This document shows, one piece after another, positions 9,361 to 41,198 of a stretch of 64,000 nucleotides of DNA. The translations under genes and the position numbers were made by a program. Every line of letters begins with the position of its first letter. Within the stretch, counting starts at the first letter, position 1. The stretch is taken from contig JAKQJD010000645.1 of NCBI GenBank assembly GCA_029561355.1, positions 1 to 64,000 on the forward strand, given 5' to 3'. The notes below the pieces were generated by a model, which did not search any database, had not been told where the DNA came from, and was given only the letters and a program-made list of their open reading frames with translations. The DNA comes from Bacteroidota bacterium. GTDB lineage: Bacteria > Bacteroidota > Bacteroidia > Chitinophagales > Saprospiraceae.

Positions 9361-9368
9361 TATCTTTG
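9361..9368 (+). promoter_or_regulatory. Promoter -7 element of RND cassette 1
   Basis: TATCTTTG (TAnnTTTG consensus) ends only 9 nt before the ATG at 9378, so the transcript should have almost no 5' leader. The preceding 40 bases, including AAACAAAAAAATTAAA, are conserved at the paralogous gene at 18925. A TTG inside the motif (9366) opens the same reading frame but is part of the promoter. Confidence 0.75.
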
Positions 9369-9377
9369 GCTCAAATT

Positions 9378-9764
9378 ATGAAAGTACGTATCGGCATATT
9401 TCTACTGTTCCTCACTTATCTGGTCGCGTTGCCGACGGATGTGGTGCGGGCTTGCGGAAGTGCCGGTATATGTCAGGAGGTTGCACCATCGGACGACGAC
9501 AACGAGATTTCTACAAATATCGGTTCCTGTTTAGACGATTCGCCGTGCAAAAATTGCCCACCTGACACAGACGGTTGTGGGCATTGCCATTGCGCTGGTT
9601 GCGGTATCGCTAATGCGCCGCACAGTCTTTTTTACAAAAACACTTTCGTTGAAGTGTTTCCAGTTCCCGATTGGCTATATGCTGACCGGGCTGTCAATTT
9701 CTGCTATGATGCGCCCAGCACCTCGGCTCATCGGACAATCCTGTTCCAGCCTCCGCGAGTGTGA
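9378..9764 (+). CDS. Exported Cys-rich protein heading RND cassette 1
   Basis: A 128-residue exported protein with signal peptide MKVRIGIFLLFLTYLVALPT, then CPPDTDGCGHCHCAGCG and a conserved tail (WLYADRAVNFCYDAP, ILFQPPRV). The ATG at 9378 is preferred over the in-frame TTG at 9366 because the latter lies inside the TATCTTTG promoter element. It is clearly paralogous to the protein at 18925 and more distantly to 40788. Each of these accompanies an RND heavy-metal system. It resembles the short uncharacterised exported proteins (DUF6660-like, from memory) encoded beside Bacteroidota cation-efflux operons. A periplasmic metal-binding or sensing role is inferred from the Cys/His cluster. Confidence 0.82.
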   Translation: MKVRIGIFLLFLTYLVALPTDVVRACGSAGICQEVAPSDDDNEISTNIGSCLDDSPCKNCPPDTDGCGHCHCAGCGIANAPHSLFYKNTFVEVFPVPDWLYADRAVNFCYDAPSTSAHRTILFQPPRV

Positions 9765-9778
9765 ATTAGCCTTTCCCA

Positions 9779-9825
9779 TTTTTTTGATTTTTCAAAAAAA
9801 CGCTGCAAGTCAAGCACTTGCGGTG
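9779..9825 (+). promoter_or_regulatory. Tandem hairpin module, copy 1 (paralogue at 19332)
   Basis: Two adjacent hairpins lie 14 nt after the Cys-rich gene stop. Hairpin A (9779-9800) has TTTTTTTGA, a TTTT loop and TCAAAAAAA. Hairpin B (9801-9825) has CGCTGCAAGT, loop CAAGC and ACTTGCGGTG. The whole 47-nt unit recurs at 19332-19378 with stem-preserving substitutions. It could be a transcription attenuator, a stability element or a protein-binding site. Confidence 0.65.
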
Positions 9826-9920
9826 CATTTCTTATTTGGCTTCAACCATCGTTCCCACGACCGCAGTCCACACTCGACCATCATACATCACCATATTTTC
9901 AACTTAAAATTTTCTCAATC

Positions 9921-10271
9921 ATGAAAACATTTCAGTTCATTCTCGCTGCCCTCGCTTTGTCCCTTATCACTTTTTCCTGTGGTCAGGAGAAAGGCACCGC
10001 TTTATCCTTGACGACCGAAATTTTCTGTGACCACTGTGAAGAATGTGAATCCTGCAAAGGAAGAGTAGAAAAAGCCCTGCTTTCAACCGAGGGAGTTAAT
10101 TCGGCCAATATGAAAGTGGCTGAAAAAACGATTGCGGTAACGTATGACCCGGCAAAAATTAACGAGCAGCAAATCAAAATGGCAATTGCCAAAACGGGAT
10201 TTGCCGCCGGAGATGTACCGGCAGATCCTGCTGCTTATGATAATCTGGACGATTGCTGTAAGAAGAAATAA
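9921..10271 (+). CDS. Heavy-metal-associated (HMA) domain lipoprotein
   Basis: A 116-residue lipoprotein. Its signal ends in the lipobox LITFSC with Cys20 as the lipidated residue, so it is anchored in the envelope. The rest is a ferredoxin-like HMA domain in which the usual CxxC loop is expanded to CDHCEECESC, giving four cysteines. It ends with DDCCKKK. HMA domains bind Cu(I), Zn or Hg through the loop cysteines. The extracytoplasmic location suggests delivery to, or scavenging for, the RND permease whose gene starts 72 nt downstream. There is no equivalent in the second cassette. Confidence 0.85.
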   Translation: MKTFQFILAALALSLITFSCGQEKGTALSLTTEIFCDHCEECESCKGRVEKALLSTEGVNSANMKVAEKTIAVTYDPAKINEQQIKMAIAKTGFAAGDVPADPAAYDNLDDCCKKK

Positions 10272-10343: not shown

Positions 10344-13300
10344 ATGATTGACCAGATTATTAAATTTTCTATCCAGCATAAAATGATCGTCGGGTTATTC
10401 GTGCTCGGTCTGATAGGTTGGGGCAGTTATTCCCTGGCCCACCTGCCGATGGATGCACTGCCCGACATCACCAATAATCAGGTGCAGGTTATTACCGTTG
10501 CGCCGACGCTGGCATCCCAGGAAGTGGAACAATACGTGACCGCACCCATCGAAGCCGCTTGCGCTAATCTGCCTGATATGGTGGAATTGAGGTCTATTTC
10601 CAGACTTGGACTGTCGGTGATTACCATAGTGTTCAAAGATGAAATGAACCTTTACGAAGCCAGGCAACTGGTAAATGAAAGGTTAAAGGAAGCGGAAGAG
10701 CATATTCCAAAAGGTGTGGGCAGTCCTGATCTGGCACCCGCTTCCACCGGATTGAGCGACATTTACCAGTACGTACTGCACACCAAACCCGGCTACGATT
10801 CTATCTATTCGGATATGGAGTTGCGTACGATTCAGGACTGGATCGTCAAACGGCAACTATTGAGTGTGCCGGGAATTGCCGAGATCAACACCTTGGGCGG
10901 ACACCTGAAACAGTACGAAATAGCCGTAGATGCGCAGCAACTGAAAGCGATGAATGTCAGCATTCAGGAACTGTTCGAGGCGCTGGAAAAGAACAATGAG
11001 AGCACTGGCGGCAGTTACATTGAAAAAGGGCCAAACGCCTATTTCATTCGCGGTATGGGCATGGTGGAAAACCTGCACGACATAGAGGCGATTGTGGTAA
11101 AACAGTCAGACGGCGTACCCGTGCTGGTGCGAAACATTGCAAAAGTACAGTATGGAAATGCCAATCGTTACGGCGCTGCTACTCGTAATGGTGAAGGGGA
11201 AGTGGTGGTCGGTGTAGCAATGATGCGGAAGGGACAAAACTCGGCGGAAGTAGCACGGAGCGTCGAAGAACGGATAGAGGTTATCAAAAAATCCCTGCCG
11301 GAAGGCGTCATTATTGAGCCTTTTTTGGATCGTAATGATCTTGTAGAACGTGCCATTACTACGGTTACGACCAACCTGGCTGAAGGCGGTCTGATCGTCG
11401 TTTTTATTCTGGTTTTGTTTCTCGGCAATCTTCGGGCAGGTTTGGTAGTCGCTTCGGTTATTCCGCTGGCTATGCTTTTTGCACTCGGTATGATGCGTCT
11501 GTTCGGGGTTTCAGGTAACCTGATGAGCCTTGGTGCAATTGACTTCGGATTGATCGTGGACGGCGCGGTGATCATTGTTGAAAGCATTGTGCATCGGATT
11601 ACCAGCAACGTTCTGCCGGGCAGGAACCGGCTCACACAGACTGAAATGGATGAAGAGGTATATGAGGCGTCTTCCCGTATCCGGACTTCTGCTGCTTTCG
11701 GAGAAATCATTATCCTGATTGTGTATCTGCCCATTCTGACGCTTACCGGTATTGAAGGCAAGATGTTTGGCCCTATGGCGCAAACGGTATCGTTTGCTAT
11801 TTTAGGGGCATTCCTGCTTTCGCTGACTTATGTGCCAATGATGTCAGCGTTGTTTTTGAGCAAGAAAACGGTACACAAACGCAATATATCCGACCGCATG
11901 ATGGACTTGTTTCAACGTGCTTACAACCCGCTGATTCATTTCGCATTGCGCCATAAAATTGCTGTCGTGGTAGCGTCTTTAGGCTTGTTTATAGGGAGCC
12001 TGGTGATGTTTTCCCGCATGGGTGGTGAGTTTATTCCGACGCTGGAAGAAGGCGACCTTGCTTTGAATACGCGCATCATGGCGGGTAGTTCGCTGACTCA
12101 AAATATAGCCATACTCACCCGGCTCGAAGGAATGATAAAATCAAAGTTTCCGGAAGTAAAACAGGTCGTGTCCCGTATCGGCGCTTCAGAAATACCAACC
12201 GACCCTATGTCGGTGGAAGTAGCCGATATTATCGTGGTACTGAAGGATAAAAAGGAGTGGACTTCTGCTGAAACACGCGATGAACTGGCGGATAAAATCA
12301 AAAAGGAGATTTCCAATCTTCCCGGCGTAAGTCTGGAAATATCGCAACCTATTCAACTGCGGTTCAATGAGTTAATGACCGGCGTACGTTCGGACGTAGC
12401 GATCAAAATCTTCGGTGACGACCTGGATGTTCTGGCGAAGAAAGGTAGCGAGGCGATCCGGGTGATCGAAAACATTCCGGGTATTGCCGATCTGAAAGCA
12501 GAACAGGTGACGGGTCTGCCACAGATTTCTGTAAAGTACAACCGTGAACAAATCGCTCAATACGGATTGAGTATTGACGCTATTAACCGGACGCTGCGCA
12601 CTGCTTTTGCCGGAGAAGTGGCCGGAGTTGTTTTTGAAGGGGAAAAACGTTTTGATATGGTGGTTCGGTTGGACAAGGGGCTGCGCACCGACATCGACGA
12701 TATTCGTAATCTTTCTATTCCAATTTCCGGAGGCGCACAAATCCCATTGAGCCAGTTAGCGCAAATTGAGTACGGTGCAGCACCCATGCAGATTTCACGG
12801 GACGACGGTCGGCGACGGATGACCCTGGGTCTGAATGTGCGTAACCGTGATGTGCAGTCTGTGGTGGAAGAAATCAAAGTAAAACTGGACAAAGAACTTG
12901 AATTGCCAGCGGGTTACTATGTGACTTACGGCGGGCAGTTTGAGAACCTGATTGAAGCCAACAGGCGATTATTGATAGCCGTACCGATAGCCCTGTTGCT
13001 GATCCTGGTGCTGCTTTATTTTACCTTCCATTCCCTGCGTCATACGCTGCTGATATTCTCCGCTATCCCACTTTCCGCTATCGGTGGAGTATTGGCTTTA
13101 TGGCTGCGTGATATGCCGTTCAGCATTTCAGCAGGGGTTGGATTTATCGCGCTGTTTGGTGTGGCGGTACTGAACGGGATTGTTCTGATTGCCTATTTCA
13201 ATCAACTGAAAAGCGAGGGTATGACAAATATCGAAGAACGTGTGCTGACGGGTACACGTGTCCGGCTCCGACCCGTTTTAATGACGGCAGCGGTCGCGTC

Positions 13301-18778: not shown

Positions 18779-18800
18779 TAACGGGCAGTTCAGACCGCCT

Positions 18801-18864
18801 CGTGCCGTATTATTTTTTGCTATTCCGGCCTATCGGTAGTCCCTTTTCACTTCAACACGGCACG
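18801..18864. repeat. Inverted repeat CGTGCCGT / ACGGCACG before cassette 2
   Basis: Perfect 8-bp inverted repeats at 18801-18808 and 18857-18864 with 48 nt between them. The second arm ends exactly where sequence shared with the cassette 1 promoter begins (GAATAAACAAAAAAATTAAA). It may be a regulatory site or the edge of a duplicated or transferred unit. Confidence 0.45.
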
Positions 18865-18907
18865 AATAAACAAAAAAATTAAACCAGCGTTTTTATCGGT
18901 GTTCCCC

Positions 18908-18915
18908 TATCTTTG
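18908..18915 (+). promoter_or_regulatory. Promoter -7 element of RND cassette 2
   Basis: TATCTTTG (TAnnTTTG) ends 9 nt before the ATG at 18925, the same spacing as at 9361-9378. Upstream and downstream bases match cassette 1 closely (CAAATTATGAAA follows in the second, with one differing base before it). Confidence 0.75.
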
Positions 18916-18924
18916 GCGCAAATT

Positions 18925-19317
18925 ATGAAATTCTACCTCCATATATTGTTTCTGTTTACCCTTGGTCTTGTGGCATTGCCAACAAGCTGGGTGCAGGATT
19001 TCAGCGGTGTGGAGATAGAAATAGGGGTTAAAACCGTTTCACATCCCAGTAGCGAGCATTGTGCTCCGGTGGATGACGAATGCGTAGACACCCATCCCGG
19101 CCAGGATTGCCCCCCCGATACAGACGGTTGTGGACATTGTCACTGCCCTGGTTGTGGTGCACCGGGCGGTATGACCTATGCTGGTTTTTTCAAGAACACT
19201 TTTTCCGAATTGACAGTTGTTGACTGGTCGTATGCCGACCGTGCCGCCAATTTCTGTTACAACACGCCTTGTTCCTCGGCGCATCCGGCGGCGCTTTTCC
19301 AGCCTCCTCGGGCATGA
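18925..19317 (+). CDS. Exported Cys-rich protein heading RND cassette 2
   Basis: A 130-residue paralogue of the protein at 9378: signal peptide MKFYLHILFLFTLGLVALPT, acidic/Cys linker, then CPPDTDGCGHCHCPGCG and the tail WSYADRAANFCYNTP and LFQPPRA. The core cluster is nearly identical to the first copy while the linker differs, as expected if the Cys/His cluster and the tail are under selection. The ATG at 18925 is chosen over the in-frame TTG at 18913, which lies inside the promoter. It is followed 14 nt later by the second copy of the tandem hairpin, then the fused permease gene. A metal-binding envelope role is inferred. Confidence 0.82.
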   Translation: MKFYLHILFLFTLGLVALPTSWVQDFSGVEIEIGVKTVSHPSSEHCAPVDDECVDTHPGQDCPPDTDGCGHCHCPGCGAPGGMTYAGFFKNTFSELTVVDWSYADRAANFCYNTPCSSAHPAALFQPPRA

Positions 19318-19331
19318 ATTAGTCCTTTCGT

Positions 19332-19378
19332 TTTTTGATTTTTCAAAAACGTACACTGTAAGTCAAGCACTTACGGTG
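19332..19378 (+). promoter_or_regulatory. Tandem hairpin module, copy 2
   Basis: Hairpin A (19332-19349) has TTTTTGA, a TTTT loop and TCAAAAA. Hairpin B (19354-19378) has CACTGTAAGT, loop CAAGC and ACTTACGGTG. Compared with copy 1, stem B changes C-G to U-A at pair 6 and G-U to A-U at pair 2 while the loop is unchanged. Stem A loses base pairs symmetrically. Both copies are 47 nt long and start 14 nt after the upstream stop codon. Confidence 0.65.
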
Positions 19379-19417
19379 CATCTCTCATTTGGATTAATTC
19401 AACATTTTGTAACAGGC

Positions 19418-22400
19418 ATGATCAATCGAATCATTCACTTTTCTATTCACAACAAGTTTGTGGTGGGCATCGCTACGCTTGCACTCATCGCGGCAGGCGT
19501 GTGGTCGTTCACTAAACTCCCGATAGATGCAGTTCCCGATATTACAAACAACCAGGTACAGATTATCACCCTTTCGCCCACCTTGGCGACATCGGAAGTA
19601 GAGCAATACATCAGCGCACCGATTGAAATAGCCGTCAAAACTATTCCCGACCTGACCGAACTCCGTTCCATCAGCCGTTTTGGTTTGAGTGTTGTGACGG
19701 TTGTTTTCAATGAGGACAAAGACATCTGGCTTGCTCGCCAGCAAATCACTGAAAAACTCAAAGAGGTAGAAGAAGACCTGCCCGCCGGAGTTGGCACCCC
19801 GGAACTCGCACCCGTTTCCACGGGACTGGGCGAGGTGTATCAATATGTAGTGGAACCGAAACCGGGTTATGAAAGCCGATACAATTCAATGGACTTGCGC
19901 ACGATACAGGACTGGATCGTAAAACGTCAATTAGCCGGTATACCCGGTGTAGCGGAAGTGAACAGTTTCGGTGGTCTGATGAAGCAGTACGAGGTAGCTG
20001 TAGATCCCCAGAGACTCAACGCTGCCGGATTGACCATCGGCGACGTATTCGAGGCATTGGAAAACAGTAACCAAAACACAGGCGGTGCTTACATTGAGCG
20101 CAACAGCCAATTCTACTTTATACGTGGTGAGGGTGTAGCACTTTCTTTAGATGATCTGAGTCGTATTGTAGTCACCCGCATGGGTGGGGGTGGTGCCCCG
20201 CTCACTGTCGGCGACGTAGCTGAGGTGCGGTATGGCAGTGCTACTCGGTACGGTGCGGTTACTGAAAACGGAAAGGGGGAAGTAGTTACCGGCATCGTCA
20301 TGATGCTCAAAGGAGCCAATTCTTCTGCCGTAGTCAGCAGTGTTAAGGAACGGTTGGGGCAGGTGCAAAAGTCGCTGCCCGAAGGGGTGCAGGTGCGCGC
20401 ATTCCTTGACCGGGCTGCACTGGTAGAACGGACCATCGATACCGTAAAACGCAATCTGATCGAAGGCGCACTCATTGTCATATTTATCCTGGTGCTGCTG
20501 GTCGGGAATTTCCGCGCTGGATTGATTATCGCTTCGGTAATTCCGCTGGCTATGTTATTCGCTTTATGGATGATGCATTTATTCGGTGTATCAGCCAATC
20601 TCATGTCGCTCGGTGCTATCGACTTCGGCCTTATTGTAGATGGTGCGGTGATCATTGTGGAGGCGACCTTACATTACTTCCATACCCACCACAAACCTCC
20701 GGCGGGAAGCGGTTTTGTGCGGCTCTCCCAACAGCAAATGGAGGAAGGCGTCTATAAATCGGCCAGCGGAATCATGCGTTCATCCGTGTTCGGGGTAATC
20801 ATTATCCTGATTGTCTATTTGCCGCTACTGGCATTGGTAGGCATCGAGGGCAAGATGTTCCGGCCTATGGCACAGACAGTAGCGTTCGCATTAATTGGCG
20901 CATTGTTACTTTCCCTCACGTATGTGCCGATGGTAAGCGCATTGTTTTTAAGCAAAAAAATCAGCGACCACCTCACGTTTGCCGACCGGATCATCGCCGC
21001 TTGCCAGCGGGTTTATTCACCCATACTCGAAAGCGCATTACGCATTCCGAAAATAGTACTGGGAGTTGTATTCGGCTTATTTGCCGTCGCCATGTTCTGC
21101 TTTTCCCGGTTGGGGGGCGAGTTCATTCCGCAGTTGGACGAGGGCGATCTGGCACTGGAAAGCAGTTTTCCTCAAGGAACATCCCTCAGCCAGGTAATTG
21201 ACGGCTATAAGTTGATCGAAGGCACTCTAATGAAAAGCTTCCCAGACGAAGTGGAAGGTGTAGTCACCAAAATCGGTGCGGCAGAAATCCCGACCGATCC
21301 CATGCCGATGAGTGCAGGTGATGTGACCATCCTGCTCAAAGACCGCGAAGAATGGAAAGTAACCGATGACAAAGACGAACTGGTAGAAATGATGGAAGAA
21401 AAACTCCGGGGTATACCCGGTGCGAACATAGAATTCACCCAGCCCATTGAATTGCGCTTCAACGAACTGATGACCGGCTCAAAAGGTGATGTGGCAGTGA
21501 AAATCTACGGTGAGAATCTGGATACGCTCGCCACTTTAGCTGCCGAAGCTGATCGTTTGATCAAAACCGTGTCCGGCGTGAGCAGTAAAGTAGAACAGAC
21601 ATTGGGCTTGCCGCAAATAAATGTCAAATATAACTACGCCAAACTCGCTCAATACGGCCTGCATGTGAAAGACGTGAATACAGTACTCAGTACAGCGTTT
21701 GCCGGGGCTGTGGCTGGAGTTATTTACGAGGATGGTAAACGTTTTGACCTCGCTGTACGCCTTACTCAGAATAATCGCCGGGACATCGAAGACGTACGCA
21801 ACCTGCTCATTAGTACTGACAACGTCGTACGGCAAATCCCACTCAGCGAAGTTGCCAGCATCGAATATCGAACTTCCCCTGCCCAGATTAGTCGCGACGA
21901 TGCGCAGCGCCGTATCGTCATCGGTGTGAATCTCGTTAGCGGGCGCGACGTGGAAAGTGCGGTGAGTGATATGCAGGAAAAACTCTCTAACTTAAAACTC
22001 CCGCCCGGTTATTTCATAACCTATGGGGGCCAGTTCGAAAACCTTAAAGCAGCCAAAGCCCGCTTGGGTGTCGCCGTACCGTTGGCACTGGTGCTCATCG
22101 TGGTATTATTGTATTTCGCTTTCAACTCCATGAAAGAGAGTCTTTTGATTTTTACTGCGGTGCCGCTTTCTGCCATCGGTGGCGTATTCGCGCTGATGCT
22201 GCGCGGGATGCCGTTTTCGATTTCGGCAGGTGTAGGTTTTATTGCCTTGTTTGGAGTAGCAGTGCTCAACGGTATTGTGCTCATCGCTTATTTCAACCAG
22301 TTAGAAAAGTCAGGTGTAGCCGACGTATACGAGCGCATCCGGAGAGGGACAAAAGTGCGGTTGCGTCCGGTGCTGATGACAGCAGCGGTGGCTTCACTCG

Positions 22401-23773
22401 GTTTTTTACCGATGGCCATGTCGGATGGTGCAGGTGCGGAAGTGCAACGACCCCTGGCTACGGTTGTCATAGGCGGTTTGCTGACGGCTACCTTGCTCAC
22501 ACTCATTGTATTGCCTGTGTTGTACAGTTTATTTTTTAAAAAGATGAAAGGAGGAAAAATGAATGCTCAAACGTCTGTCGTCTCGGTACTACTGGTAGGA
22601 GCCTTTCTTGCTTTTAGTAATAATACGCAAGCTCAAACTGCCCTCACTGAGCAGCAGGCTATTGTGATGGTGGAAAAAAATCACCCCAGTATGCGTGCCG
22701 CTTCGCTTCGGATGGCTCAGCAGCAAACTCTGACGGGGGCAGCCAAAATTTGGGAACCGGCGCAAATTTTTAACAACATTGCCGCCGACCCGGAACTGGG
22801 GATGTTTGGCACGACGAGTCTCGGCATTAGCCAGACTTTCCCATCAGGCAAAGCCACTCGCGCCAACCGGCAGTTCAACGCCCAGAATATCACAAGAAGC
22901 CAAACTGAATTGCAGTTGACACGTCAGGAACTGGTGCGGGAAGTACGAAAGACCTACCAACATCTGGGCTACTTACAGGGTAGAATCGTGCTCCTGGCTC
23001 GCCTCGACAGTGTATATCAAAACTTCAATGCCGTAGCTGATGTACGCTACCGTACCGGGGATGCTTCACAAGCCGAAAAACTGGCAGTGCAGGACAGGGC
23101 AGCGCAAATCCGGCTTCAGATCGAATCTGCACGGAGTGAAATTGCATCCGATCAGTTTGCGCTCGGCCAGTTATTAGGAATAGGGCAACCTATACAGGCT
23201 GTTGTGGCTCCGCTGACGGCAACCGGGTTTTCGCTGGCGGATTCGGCACGTGTTAATTCTTCCGCTTATGCCGCTTATGCACGGAGCGCCATCGACGTGG
23301 CCAAAGCACAACAAGCAGTACAGCAGGCTACACTGGCTCCTACTTTTTCGGCGAGTTTGTTCGGTCAATACCTCGGTAATGGAGCAGTTTATCCCGGCTG
23401 GCAGTTGGGATTAAATATCCCGCTGTTTAAAAAAGCGCAGCAAAAACAGGTACAAGCGGCTGCCGTCGGCGTACAAGTCGCTCAGTCAGAATATCAAAAC
23501 GCTGTACTCATGCGGCAAACCCAGCTAACGGCATCTGTTTTTGAGTTTCAAAAATTCGAGTCGTTCACGGGTTATTATGAGCGGCAGGGTCGTGTAGTGG
23601 CTAATGAATTGCTTCGCAGCGGTTCGCTCAATTACCAGCAAGGTGAAATCAGTTATGTCGAGTATGTTCAGAACCTCGATCAGGCGCTGCAAATCGAATC
23701 GCAATACCTGGAAAACCTGTTGCAACGCAATATGGCTGCTATCGAAATCCAGTACCTGACAAACCAAAACTGA
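19418..23773 (+). CDS. czcA: CzcA-type RND permease fused to TolC-like outer-membrane factor (system 2)
   Basis: A 1451-residue fusion. Residues 1 to about 1045 are a CusA/CzcA-family metal RND permease (PIDAVPDITNNQVQI; TM4 motif AIDFGLIVDGAVIIVE). From Met1048 (base 22559) an outer-membrane factor of the TolC/CzcC type follows, beginning with its own signal peptide-like segment (SVVSVLLVGAFLAFSNNTQA) and then TEQQAIVMVEKNHPSMRAA. A GGAGG (22550-22554) precedes that internal Met codon, so the channel might also be made separately. The frame opens at 19217, but the ATG at 19418 matches the first permease (MIDQIIKF against MINRIIHF). Permease-channel fusions are known in Bacteroidota. The adaptor gene follows 79 nt later. 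Confidence 0.93.
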   Translation: MINRIIHFSIHNKFVVGIATLALIAAGVWSFTKLPIDAVPDITNNQVQIITLSPTLATSEVEQYISAPIEIAVKTIPDLTELRSISRFGLSVVTVVFNEDKDIWLARQQITEKLKEVEEDLPAGVGTPELAPVSTGLGEVYQYVVEPKPGYESRYNSMDLRTIQDWIVKRQLAGIPGVAEVNSFGGLMKQYEVAVDPQRLNAAGLTIGDVFEALENSNQNTGGAYIERNSQFYFIRGEGVALSLDDLSRIVVTRMGGGGAPLTVGDVAEVRYGSATRYGAVTENGKGEVVTGIVMMLKGANSSAVVSSVKERLGQVQKSLPEGVQVRAFLDRAALVERTIDTVKRNLIEGALIVIFILVLLVGNFRAGLIIASVIPLAMLFALWMMHLFGVSANLMSLGAIDFGLIVDGAVIIVEATLHYFHTHHKPPAGSGFVRLSQQQMEEGVYKSASGIMRSSVFGVIIILIVYLPLLALVGIEGKMFRPMAQTVAFALIGALLLSLTYVPMVSALFLSKKISDHLTFADRIIAACQRVYSPILESALRIPKIVLGVVFGLFAVAMFCFSRLGGEFIPQLDEGDLALESSFPQGTSLSQVIDGYKLIEGTLMKSFPDEVEGVVTKIGAAEIPTDPMPMSAGDVTILLKDREEWKVTDDKDELVEMMEEKLRGIPGANIEFTQPIELRFNELMTGSKGDVAVKIYGENLDTLATLAAEADRLIKTVSGVSSKVEQTLGLPQINVKYNYAKLAQYGLHVKDVNTVLSTAFAGAVAGVIYEDGKRFDLAVRLTQNNRRDIEDVRNLLISTDNVVRQIPLSEVASIEYRTSPAQISRDDAQRRIVIGVNLVSGRDVESAVSDMQEKLSNLKLPPGYFITYGGQFENLKAAKARLGVAVPLALVLIVVLLYFAFNSMKESLLIFTAVPLSAIGGVFALMLRGMPFSISAGVGFIALFGVAVLNGIVLIAYFNQLEKSGVADVYERIRRGTKVRLRPVLMTAAVASLGFLPMAMSDGAGAEVQRPLATVVIGGLLTATLLTLIVLPVLYSLFFKKMKGGKMNAQTSVVSVLLVGAFLAFSNNTQAQTALTEQQAIVMVEKNHPSMRAASLRMAQQQTLTGAAKIWEPAQIFNNIAADPELGMFGTTSLGISQTFPSGKATRANRQFNAQNITRSQTELQLTRQELVREVRKTYQHLGYLQGRIVLLARLDSVYQNFNAVADVRYRTGDASQAEKLAVQDRAAQIRLQIESARSEIASDQFALGQLLGIGQPIQAVVAPLTATGFSLADSARVNSSAYAAYARSAIDVAKAQQAVQQATLAPTFSASLFGQYLGNGAVYPGWQLGLNIPLFKKAQQKQVQAAAVGVQVAQSEYQNAVLMRQTQLTASVFEFQKFESFTGYYERQGRVVANELLRSGSLNYQQGEISYVEYVQNLDQALQIESQYLENLLQRNMAAIEIQYLTNQN

Positions 23774-25158: not shown

Positions 25159-25530
25159 ATGGAACACCCACAAATGCAACATCATCATTCGGGACACAAA
25201 CACGGAGCATTGATCCAACAGTTGTTGGATTGCGCGACATCTTGCGAAAACTGTGGCGCTTCCTGCCTCGATGAACAAGACGTTACGCACATGGCTCATT
25301 GTATTGAACTGGACCGGGACTGCGCAGACTTATGCTTCCTGGGAGCCAGATTATTGACCAGAGACAGCGAGTTTGCGCATGATTTTTTAGCACTCTGTGA
25401 AAAAGCATGCCGCCACTGCGCAGAAGAATGTGGAAAGCACGAGCATGAACATTGTAAAAGATGCGCGGAAGAATGTATTAAATGTGCCGATGCATGCCAT
25501 GCACATCATGGAAAGATAGAGATGAGTTAG
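25159..25530 (+). CDS. Four-helix-bundle copper storage protein (Csp-like)
   Basis: A 123-residue protein with about 16 cysteines spaced along predicted helices (CATSCENCGASC, CIELDRDCADLC, CEKACRHCAEEC, CKRCAEECIKCADAC). This is the pattern of the DUF326/Csp family, whose tetrameric four-helix bundles hold many Cu(I) ions along the inside. A His-rich N-terminus (MEHPQMQHHHSGHKHG) precedes the bundle. No signal peptide or Tat motif is seen, so it is the cytosolic Csp3-like kind. It lies 64 nt after the system 2 adaptor and may be cotranscribed. It is expected to buffer Cu(I) in the cytoplasm. Confidence 0.88.
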   Translation: MEHPQMQHHHSGHKHGALIQQLLDCATSCENCGASCLDEQDVTHMAHCIELDRDCADLCFLGARLLTRDSEFAHDFLALCEKACRHCAEECGKHEHEHCKRCAEECIKCADACHAHHGKIEMS

Positions 25531-40787: not shown

Positions 40788-41198
40788 TCAGGCATCAACT
40801 TTAGGTGGCAGCCAAATGGGTAGGTAAACGGCTTCGGGCAAGTGATCGGCAAAATAAAATGCCATTTTCTGCACCGAATCGTTGTGGAGAGAGGCTTCTG
40901 AGGGAAGTGAGGTTTCGATGACGAAACCAGCCCCAGCGTGGCAAATTAAACCGCAGCCGGGACAATGGCAACCGCCATTGTCATGGTCACAAGGACATTC
41001 TTTTTCTGAATGCTGATGTTTTGCATCATCTGAACAGGGAGCGATGTCTTTACTTTCAGAGCAGCAAGACTTTTGAATGCCTGCCGACCCGGATTTCGTC
41101 TCACTATAAGTCCGCTCATTGCCACACGCCCAGGCACGGTTCGCCGATATGGCAAACAGGCTGAACATAAAAAGCAAGGTGATAAGACGTAATTTCAT
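40788..41198 (-). CDS. Exported Cys/His-rich protein, third cassette-family member
   Basis: A 136-residue exported protein. Signal peptide ends ANRAWA, followed by a cysteine-rich part (CGNER, KSCCSESKD, APC, HQHSEKECPCDHDNGGCHC, PGCG) and a tail ending YLPIWLPPKVDA. The GGCHCPGCG core and the PP near the C-terminus tie it to the proteins at 9378 and 18925, though the rest has diverged. It lies just upstream of the RND system 3 operon on the same strand but is separated by a terminator, so it may be regulated separately. No tandem hairpin is found after this copy. Envelope metal binding is inferred. Confidence 0.78.
   Translation of the reverse strand: MKLRLITLLFMFSLFAISANRAWACGNERTYSETKSGSAGIQKSCCSESKDIAPCSDDAKHQHSEKECPCDHDNGGCHCPGCGLICHAGAGFVIETSLPSEASLHNDSVQKMAFYFADHLPEAVYLPIWLPPKVDA

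Follow-up and report, generated by a model that had tools for sequence, protein, structure and literature searches.

A helix between the stop codon of a small Cys-rich protein gene and the leader of a CusA pump gene may couple their translation in Bacteroidota

In the window analyzed here, a stretch of 64,000 nt from a Bacteroidota genome, the main feature of the RNA lying between a small Cys-rich protein gene and a CusA pump gene is a closing helix, P1, which was missed by the initial annotation and is the part of the structure that recurs outside the genus, a similar helix of different sequence lying before CusA genes of Saprospiraceae and other Bacteroidota. The tandem hairpins described in that annotation would form the genus-specific inside of an intercistronic RNA of a small-protein/CusA operon. 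Because the closing helix recurs outside the genus, translation is indicated, and we favor, with a probability of about 0.6, a translational coupling in which P1 would keep the CusA start masked as long as no ribosome positioned on the stop codon, or close to it, has opened the helix. P1 pairing, covariation, position, recurrence and protein layout were computed, and from them we infer masking, opening by the ribosome, pausing and metal dependence.

When the RNA around the second pair of hairpins (copy 2) was folded from before the stop codon, both hairpins were enclosed by P1, an 11-bp helix with the stop codon inside. Its 5′ strand, UGAAUUAGUCC (19315–19325, + strand), starts at the stop codon and its 3′ strand, GGAUUAAUUCA (19391–19401, + strand), ends 16 nt before the CusA ATG (z = −4.35 vs. 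shuffles). Relatives devoid of the hairpins have a different closing helix at the same place, as illustrated by AGUUUAGA/UCUAAACU in genome G020 and by GUUGGGUU/AACCCAAC in G007, where the Cys gene comes without the hairpin element. At G030, G007 and G025c, pairing of the stop codon is low or partial and the helix lies mainly in the preceding codons. Among 11 homologous loci, nine, of several sequence types, have a spacer of 100–108 nt, and pairing between the stop region and the pre-start region reached z ≤ −2.36 in ten (mean −2.71). For comparison, 63 co-directional gene pairs taken from the genus as controls had a mean z of −0.15 and three values below −2 (Mann-Whitney p = 8e-6; p = 5.6e-5 when eight representatives are used). 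Six further gene pairs neighboring the window operons have no closing helix. P1 was likewise found in none of five cases where a gene ending in the PP motif precedes an HMBD lipoprotein gene, so that the PP motif can occur independently of the RNA.

The same pairing was then scored at 139 CusA loci of the family, taken from the hits listed, a subset of all hits (59 given by the searches and 80 fetched). An open frame ending in PP was present at most 300 nt upstream in 125 loci, including copy 2 and five others of the 11 homologous loci, and absent in 14. A z below −2 was obtained for 58 of the 125, distributed by spacer length as 1/5 below 64 nt, 26/33 at 64–90 nt, 20/30 at 91–115 nt, 3/20 at 116–150 nt and 8/37 above 150 nt. 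For spacers of 64–115 nt, a class set after seeing the data, this gives 46 of 63 loci vs. 3 of 63 control pairs; above 115 nt P1 is weak (11/57 with z < −2, mean about −0.6). Partners were subsequently swapped among 59 of the 63 loci, four near-duplicates having been dropped and the loci being treated as unrelated. The mean energy of cognate pairs was −10.74 vs. −5.30 kcal/mol for permuted ones (sd 0.31, z = −17.4), and no permutation out of 100,000 was as low (p ≤ 1e-5). The own partner was the single best in 21 of the 59 loci and ranked in the top half in 52. The pairing excess peaks sharply at the 20-nt window beginning at −10 of the stop (−5.4 kcal/mol, with neighbors at about −1.5) and, on the start side, at −30 to −6 of the start codon, while two wrong-segment controls gave p = 0.085 and 0.76. 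By its medians, the 5′ strand of P1 extends from approximately position −6 to position +7 relative to the stop, and all three stop bases lie inside P1 in 37 of 46 loci. An antisense or DNA structure was rejected, since the − strand folds less well and the G-U pairs favor a sense RNA; P1 pairs better in sense than in antisense in 30 of the 46 loci (p = 0.0096), yet 15 pair better in antisense.

A phylum set was assembled from 29 loci of the best-matching CusA hits, three of which have no PP gene; the 26 scored loci, whose relatedness was ignored, include two family loci already fetched (L245 and L250). The stop codon was paired to the pre-start region with a probability above 0.5 in 23 of the 26 loci and in 14 of the 63 controls, the corresponding figure being 48 of 63 for family loci with 64–115-nt spacers. 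At least five expected pairs were found in 24/26 loci vs. 28/63 controls, and the shuffle z was passed by 10 of the 20 ATG-started phylum loci with a PP gene. Six CusA genes of other Bacteroidota families (L239, L240, L244, L247, L251 and L254) have an apparent GTG start, and the stop codon is paired to the pre-start region in four of them. The inside of P1 turns over, with two hairpins in this genus and one in many short-spacer members of the family. An alignment of 23 short spacers lined P1 up poorly and was excluded from the counts. The inner hairpin core GGA[CT]AN[CT]TATG[CT]C occurs in 16 of the 125 spacers and at 17 sites in all 1.8 Mb of fetched sequence, both strands considered; as it is nearly confined to these spacers, part of the P1 inside is conserved in a subgroup. 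The hairpin, GGAYANYUAUGYC as RNA, is seen at L104, L107, L110, L112, L114, L116, L120, L122 and other loci, mostly with short spacers.

In the window itself, all hairpins were assigned to the + strand. Copy 1 comprises P2, an A/T hairpin of 9 bp with a TTTT loop (9779–9800; RNA fold and sequence), P3, of 10 bp with a CAAGC loop (9801–9825; RNA fold and comparison), and a pyrimidine-rich joiner, CAUUUCUUAUUU (9826–9837; sequence comparison), within a short P1 folded between AGCC (9768–9771) and GGCU (9838–9841). On the same grounds, copy 2 consists of P2, also with a TTTT loop (19329–19351), a 10-bp P3 with a CAAGC loop (19354–19378) and the pyrimidine-rich joiner CAUCUCUCAUUU (19379–19390). 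What had been reported of the two copies, i.e., a length of 47 nt, their coordinates, an offset of 14 nt from the stop codon, the TTTT and CAAGC loops, C-G vs. U-A at pair 6, G-U vs. A-U at pair 2 and an A/T stem of 9 vs. 7 bp, was found again in the sequence. The placement between a Cys-rich gene and an RND gene holds for copy 2 but not for copy 1, where an HMA gene intervenes before the RND gene at 10344. The 76-nt RNAs of the + strand fold with z = −3.5 and −3.2, no shuffle out of 200 being equally stable, and the − strand of the two copies with z = −2.4 and −3.0. Post-stop folds with z < −3 were obtained, with crude gene calls, in 16 of 71 spacers of the same genome, copy 1 included, and thus a stable fold does not by itself set a spacer apart. 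The core 13-mer has three sites in this genome, namely both copies and one unrelated place lacking the flanking pattern, for which reason a dispersed REP-like repeat was rejected; an attC-like site of cassette recombination was set aside, no such core sites being seen on reading. No match to the copy 1 element was found in the plasmid collection, nor to the hairpin pattern in IMG/VR contigs.

Against Rfam 15, no family reached its gathering score in the window, and a single tRNA did so in the loci of 40 relatives. Permissive scans of both copies gave matches far below gathering scores. This bears on the idea that the three-way junction is a riboswitch binding a metal or another ligand directly. 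The three-way fold and the conservation of loop and joiner sequences within the genus are what such a riboswitch would display, but the replacement of the P1 inside by other hairpins in relatives and the lack of an Rfam family at gathering score make it very improbable.

A search of 100 relatives with the 13-mer gave copies in G027, G025 and G041, the other hits lacking the flanking pattern, and a second, more diverged copy of G025 was found through a search with the Cys-rich protein. The named relatives are metagenome-assembled genomes of Lewinellaceae/Saprospiraceae. In total, six copies, i.e., the window pair and four others, were counted in the genus, where 4 of 42 genomes contain the element. 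Every copy begins at the stop codon of a homolog of the Cys-rich gene, and the next gene encodes CusA in four of the six, an HMA protein in window copy 1 and a TolC-like protein in G025b. The covariance model R1, built from these same six copies, recovers all of them at E ≤ 1.3e-17, its other hits in the genus having E values of 0.11–0.84. As only its six founding copies are significant, R1 measures range and is not an independent proof. Among 298 family genomes, mostly of other genera and drawn with stricter filters and without G025, G027 and G041, the genome of the window was the sole match at E ≤ 0.01. The four copies outside the window contribute further pair-preserving changes, and the range of the hairpins themselves is restricted.

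Over the six copies, all 60 cells of the second hairpin (P3) are paired, 50 as Watson-Crick and 10 as G-U pairs. In G025b, its loop pair is changed from U-A to C-G; pair 6 is U-A, U-G or C-G, and two-sided changes occur at three pairs over the whole fold. When the six-sequence alignment A1 was compared with 500 shuffles, the covariation score was reached by 8, the percentage paired by 19 and the pair-type count by 202, whereas slid controls attained at most 0.044 vs. the observed 0.152. Randomizing the substitutions of the second hairpin gave p = 0.028 or 0.005, by choice of null. Taken alone, the pair counts on A1 provide modest evidence for a conserved fold. Constraint on the element is also visible in the comparison with its surroundings. 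Indeed, elements are 80–99% identical between copies, vs. 26–58% identity at fourfold sites of the pump genes and 54–87% for the Cys proteins, and the remainder of the Cys-CusA spacer (21–23 nt) is 73–100% identical. The two window copies are identical at 66 of 74 positions while their genes share 10 of 29 fourfold sites. Whichever two of the four CusA-linked copies are compared (six pairs), the TolC-CusB spacer is less conserved than the element, as illustrated by copy 2 and G025a (49/69 for the spacer, 74/77 for the element). The copy 1 element is closer to that of G025a (71/76, 93%) than to copy 2, and this speaks against gene conversion within a single genome.

Chance conservation after a recent duplication, or a DNA palindrome, would be compatible with two copies in one window, six in four genomes and modest pair counts. 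Such a reading is contradicted by the excess of element identity over the fourfold sites and by the recurrence of the closing helix with other sequences, and the G-U pairs would be mismatches in a palindromic DNA; it is scarcely credible. The selected structure suggested by the initial annotation is supported, in the sense mRNA, by the 60 paired cells, the conserved G-U pairs and a conservation far above that of fourfold sites.

Copy 1 keeps P2 and P3, while pairing before the next start is gone (z about 0.5 with the HMA pre-start region). A replacement closing pair was considered between CGAGUGUG (9756–9763, + strand; fold), which overlaps the stop codon, and its complement at 9869–9876, 44 nt before the HMA ATG; such an 8-mer occurs in 9% of shuffled spacers and the case for this predicted pair is weak. 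At G025b, the codons that directly follow the element look like the beginning of a CusA gene but continue as TolC, and the leader of the HMA gene behind copy 1 corresponds to the spacer between TolC and HMA in G025b. Because of this CusA-like start and matching leader, the most likely ancestor of copy 1, judging from sequence, is a Cys-CusA-TolC unit from which both genes were lost. In G025b, the TolC-like ORF (L088:10200–11474) apparently opens with what was the start region of a deleted CusA. Since the copy 1 element is still 93% identical to that of G025a, the hairpins are presumably of some use without CusA directly behind. An intercistronic stabilizer or insulator, whose fold would protect the small-protein mRNA at its 3′ end and raise the small protein over the pump without any translational coupling, accords with this retention in copy 1, with an element that stays beside the Cys gene when HMA or TolC comes next and with the frequency of strong post-stop folds in this genome. 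It predicts neither the fixed place of the stop-codon partner before the next start nor a 100–108-nt spacer shared by nine of 11 loci of several sequence types, and we consider it unlikely, if worth keeping in mind.

The element is indeed sited where the output of the pump relative to the small protein could be set, as the initial annotation had pointed out, but the transcription attenuator that it offered as an example is not borne out. A leaky terminator between the small gene and the pump, possibly Rho-dependent as in CruR, would agree with the partial U tract behind P3 of copy 1, which a terminator scan flags with the tail CATTTCTTAT, and with a joiner that is pyrimidine-rich and G-poor. 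The U tract is not a proper one, however, and the scan flags neither copy 2 nor four relatives whose spacers differ; in 3 of the 17 spacers displayed, a classical hairpin ending in a T7 tail is present, whereas the element has no such tail, and it is kept when HMA or TolC follows. As the position of P1 also suits masking of a start codon better, attenuation appears improbable. Readthrough of the stop codon into CusA was rejected by eye, a second in-frame TGA following in G027.

Both Cys-rich genes lie on the + strand. Gene 1 (9378–9764) encodes 128 residues ending in FQPPRV and gene 2 (18925–19317) encodes 130 residues ending in FQPPRA. Each ATG is preceded, 9 nt upstream, by the box TATCTTTG (9361–9368, read directly, and 18908–18915, by homolog comparison, both + strand), which we take to be a Bacteroidota-type −7 box (TAnnTTTG); TA(T/C)CTTTG precedes the gene in 9 of the 11 homologs listed. 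A 12-nt inverted repeat with 42 nt between its arms is located upstream of gene 2 (18800–18865). Behind copy 2, a CusA/CzcA-family RND pump of 1451 residues (19418–23773, + strand) matches TIGR00914 over residues 1–1049 (1166.8 bits) and is fused to a part that is TolC-like by reading. The gene after copy 1 (9921–10271, + strand) encodes an HMA-domain protein (PF00403, E = 1.1e-12).

Neither Cys-rich protein of the window has a Pfam or NCBIfam match at E ≤ 0.1, DUF2946 and DUF6660 included. Of eight family relatives tested, seven reach or exceed the gathering cut-off of DUF6660 (PF20365), and the window protein group aligns with these seven over its full length (hhalign probability 96.6, E = 4.8e-10), so that a remote kinship to DUF6660 is supported by profile comparison. 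The two window proteins are shorter than 150 residues and have PP within the last 15 residues, followed by two residues. Both contain, in the mature part, a putative Cys/His metal motif, CPPDTDGCGHCHC(P/A)GC, in which CHC ends 52 and C(P/A)GC 49 residues before PP. The layout common to the relatives is a hydrophobic start, a Cys motif and mostly (W/F)(Q/H/R)PP followed by 2–3 residues. Among the 125 family proteins, 107 have 2–3 residues after PP and 102 have W or F two before it; the last CxC or CC stands at a median of 42 residues from PP (IQR 41–42) in the 78 with such a motif, and an N-terminal hydrophobic stretch was found in 115 relatives by a crude hydrophobicity measure.

In the proposed mechanism, the recurring core would be P1, with a 5′ strand formed by the stop-codon region (about −6 to +7) and a 3′ strand provided by the pump leader, about 10–25 nt before the start codon, and P1 would mask the initiation region of CusA. 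The footprint of a terminating ribosome would cover the 5′ strand (about −6 to +7), which points to a coupling by unmasking: a ribosome finishing the small ORF would sit on this strand, P1 would open and CusA would be translated. P1 may be kept open by a pause at the C-terminal (W/F)xPP, 2–3 codons before the stop, and this pause could be rendered metal-dependent by the Cys motif located about 42 residues upstream, as in CutF and CruR. In Flavobacterium, the structure of the mRNA and certain key nucleotides are reported to tune initiation, with no Shine-Dalgarno sites involved (PMC6847099), and the rRNA tail is reported to be sequestered (PMC9976891). Plain reinitiation over 100 nt is unlikely because, in the sections available of PMC10666635, reinitiation is nearly gone at spacings of about 20–38 nt; separated genes are described there as relying on de novo initiation or on coupling via long-range interactions. 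CusA may also be initiated without coupling.

Control of this type has been described in Proteobacteria. In CutF-CutO of Rhodobacter capsulatus, as described in the main text of PMC9973294, a small exported protein with a Cys motif and C-terminal prolines lies directly upstream of a metal-homeostasis gene, and an intergenic stem-loop shields the Shine-Dalgarno site before the multicopper oxidase gene. The arrangement described here is similar in both respects, with a putative export of the small protein and, in the window, a shielding of the next start that is predicted for copy 2 only. Unlike in CutF-CutO, the helix contains the stop codon, the phylum makes no use of Shine-Dalgarno sequences, an RND pump comes next and the pairing is kept through a large sequence turnover, with a function that is predicted. 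The list of CutF-like proteins in that text includes Bacteroidota proteins, and its neighbor classes include CusA/CzcA; hence, the protein side was partly anticipated. Intergenic RNA motifs were part of the CutF approach, and for Bacteroidota the main text gives spacer lengths but no RNA structure. The same text reports that the proline-rich end of CutF alone did not stall. In CruR (DUF2946) of Bordetella pertussis, according to the sections available of PMC9426467, the Cys motif stands 45 residues before PP and PP three residues from the C-terminus, compared with the median of 42 (78/125) and the 2–3 residues (107/125) found here; the motif is RAPP vs. mostly (W/F)(Q/H/R)PP, and control proceeds by Rho-dependent termination, the mRNA region involved being unstructured and the next gene encoding a TonB-dependent receptor. 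SecM-SecA, VemP-SecDF2 and MifM-YidC2 are presented in the corresponding excerpts (PMC10987492, PMC7897499, PMC9973294) as exported small proteins encoded upstream, near whose end the stalled ribosome opens a structure hiding the next start. These three monitor protein export or insertion and their arrest is proven, whereas here an arrest is proposed by analogy. RAPP/RGPP uORFs before copper genes are reported from various lineages, with exceptions that include Bacteroidota, in the text available of PMC12992588. Full-text searches of the open-licence literature returned no paper on DUF6660, none combining CusA, Bacteroidetes and translational coupling, and no account of this RNA in Bacteroidota.

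A broader proposal, which we advance tentatively and at less than even odds, is that DUF6660-type proteins are nascent-chain metal sensors of Bacteroidota, in which the exported Cys motif would sense copper, or a similar metal, in the periplasm while the ribosome stands at (W/F)xPP, the output being the opening of P1 for CusA. If true, this would constitute a phylum-wide, Shine-Dalgarno-free translational switch with the stop codon as part of the lock. With a conserved helix between stop codon and start region, metal efflux in Bacteroidota would gain a level of translational control and the uncharacterized DUF6660 family a role, and it would become apparent how a start site can be hidden and exposed in cells whose ribosomes disregard Shine-Dalgarno sequences.

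Two further Cys-rich proteins were observed in the window. A third, distant homolog with a PPK-type C-terminus is encoded on the − strand (40905–41198), followed by an HMBD-type lipoprotein gene, and the closing helix is absent there. Behind the CusA-CusB genes, the product of 25159–25530 resembles Csp1 copper storage proteins, with 40 bits against TIGR04401 for a cut-off of 100.
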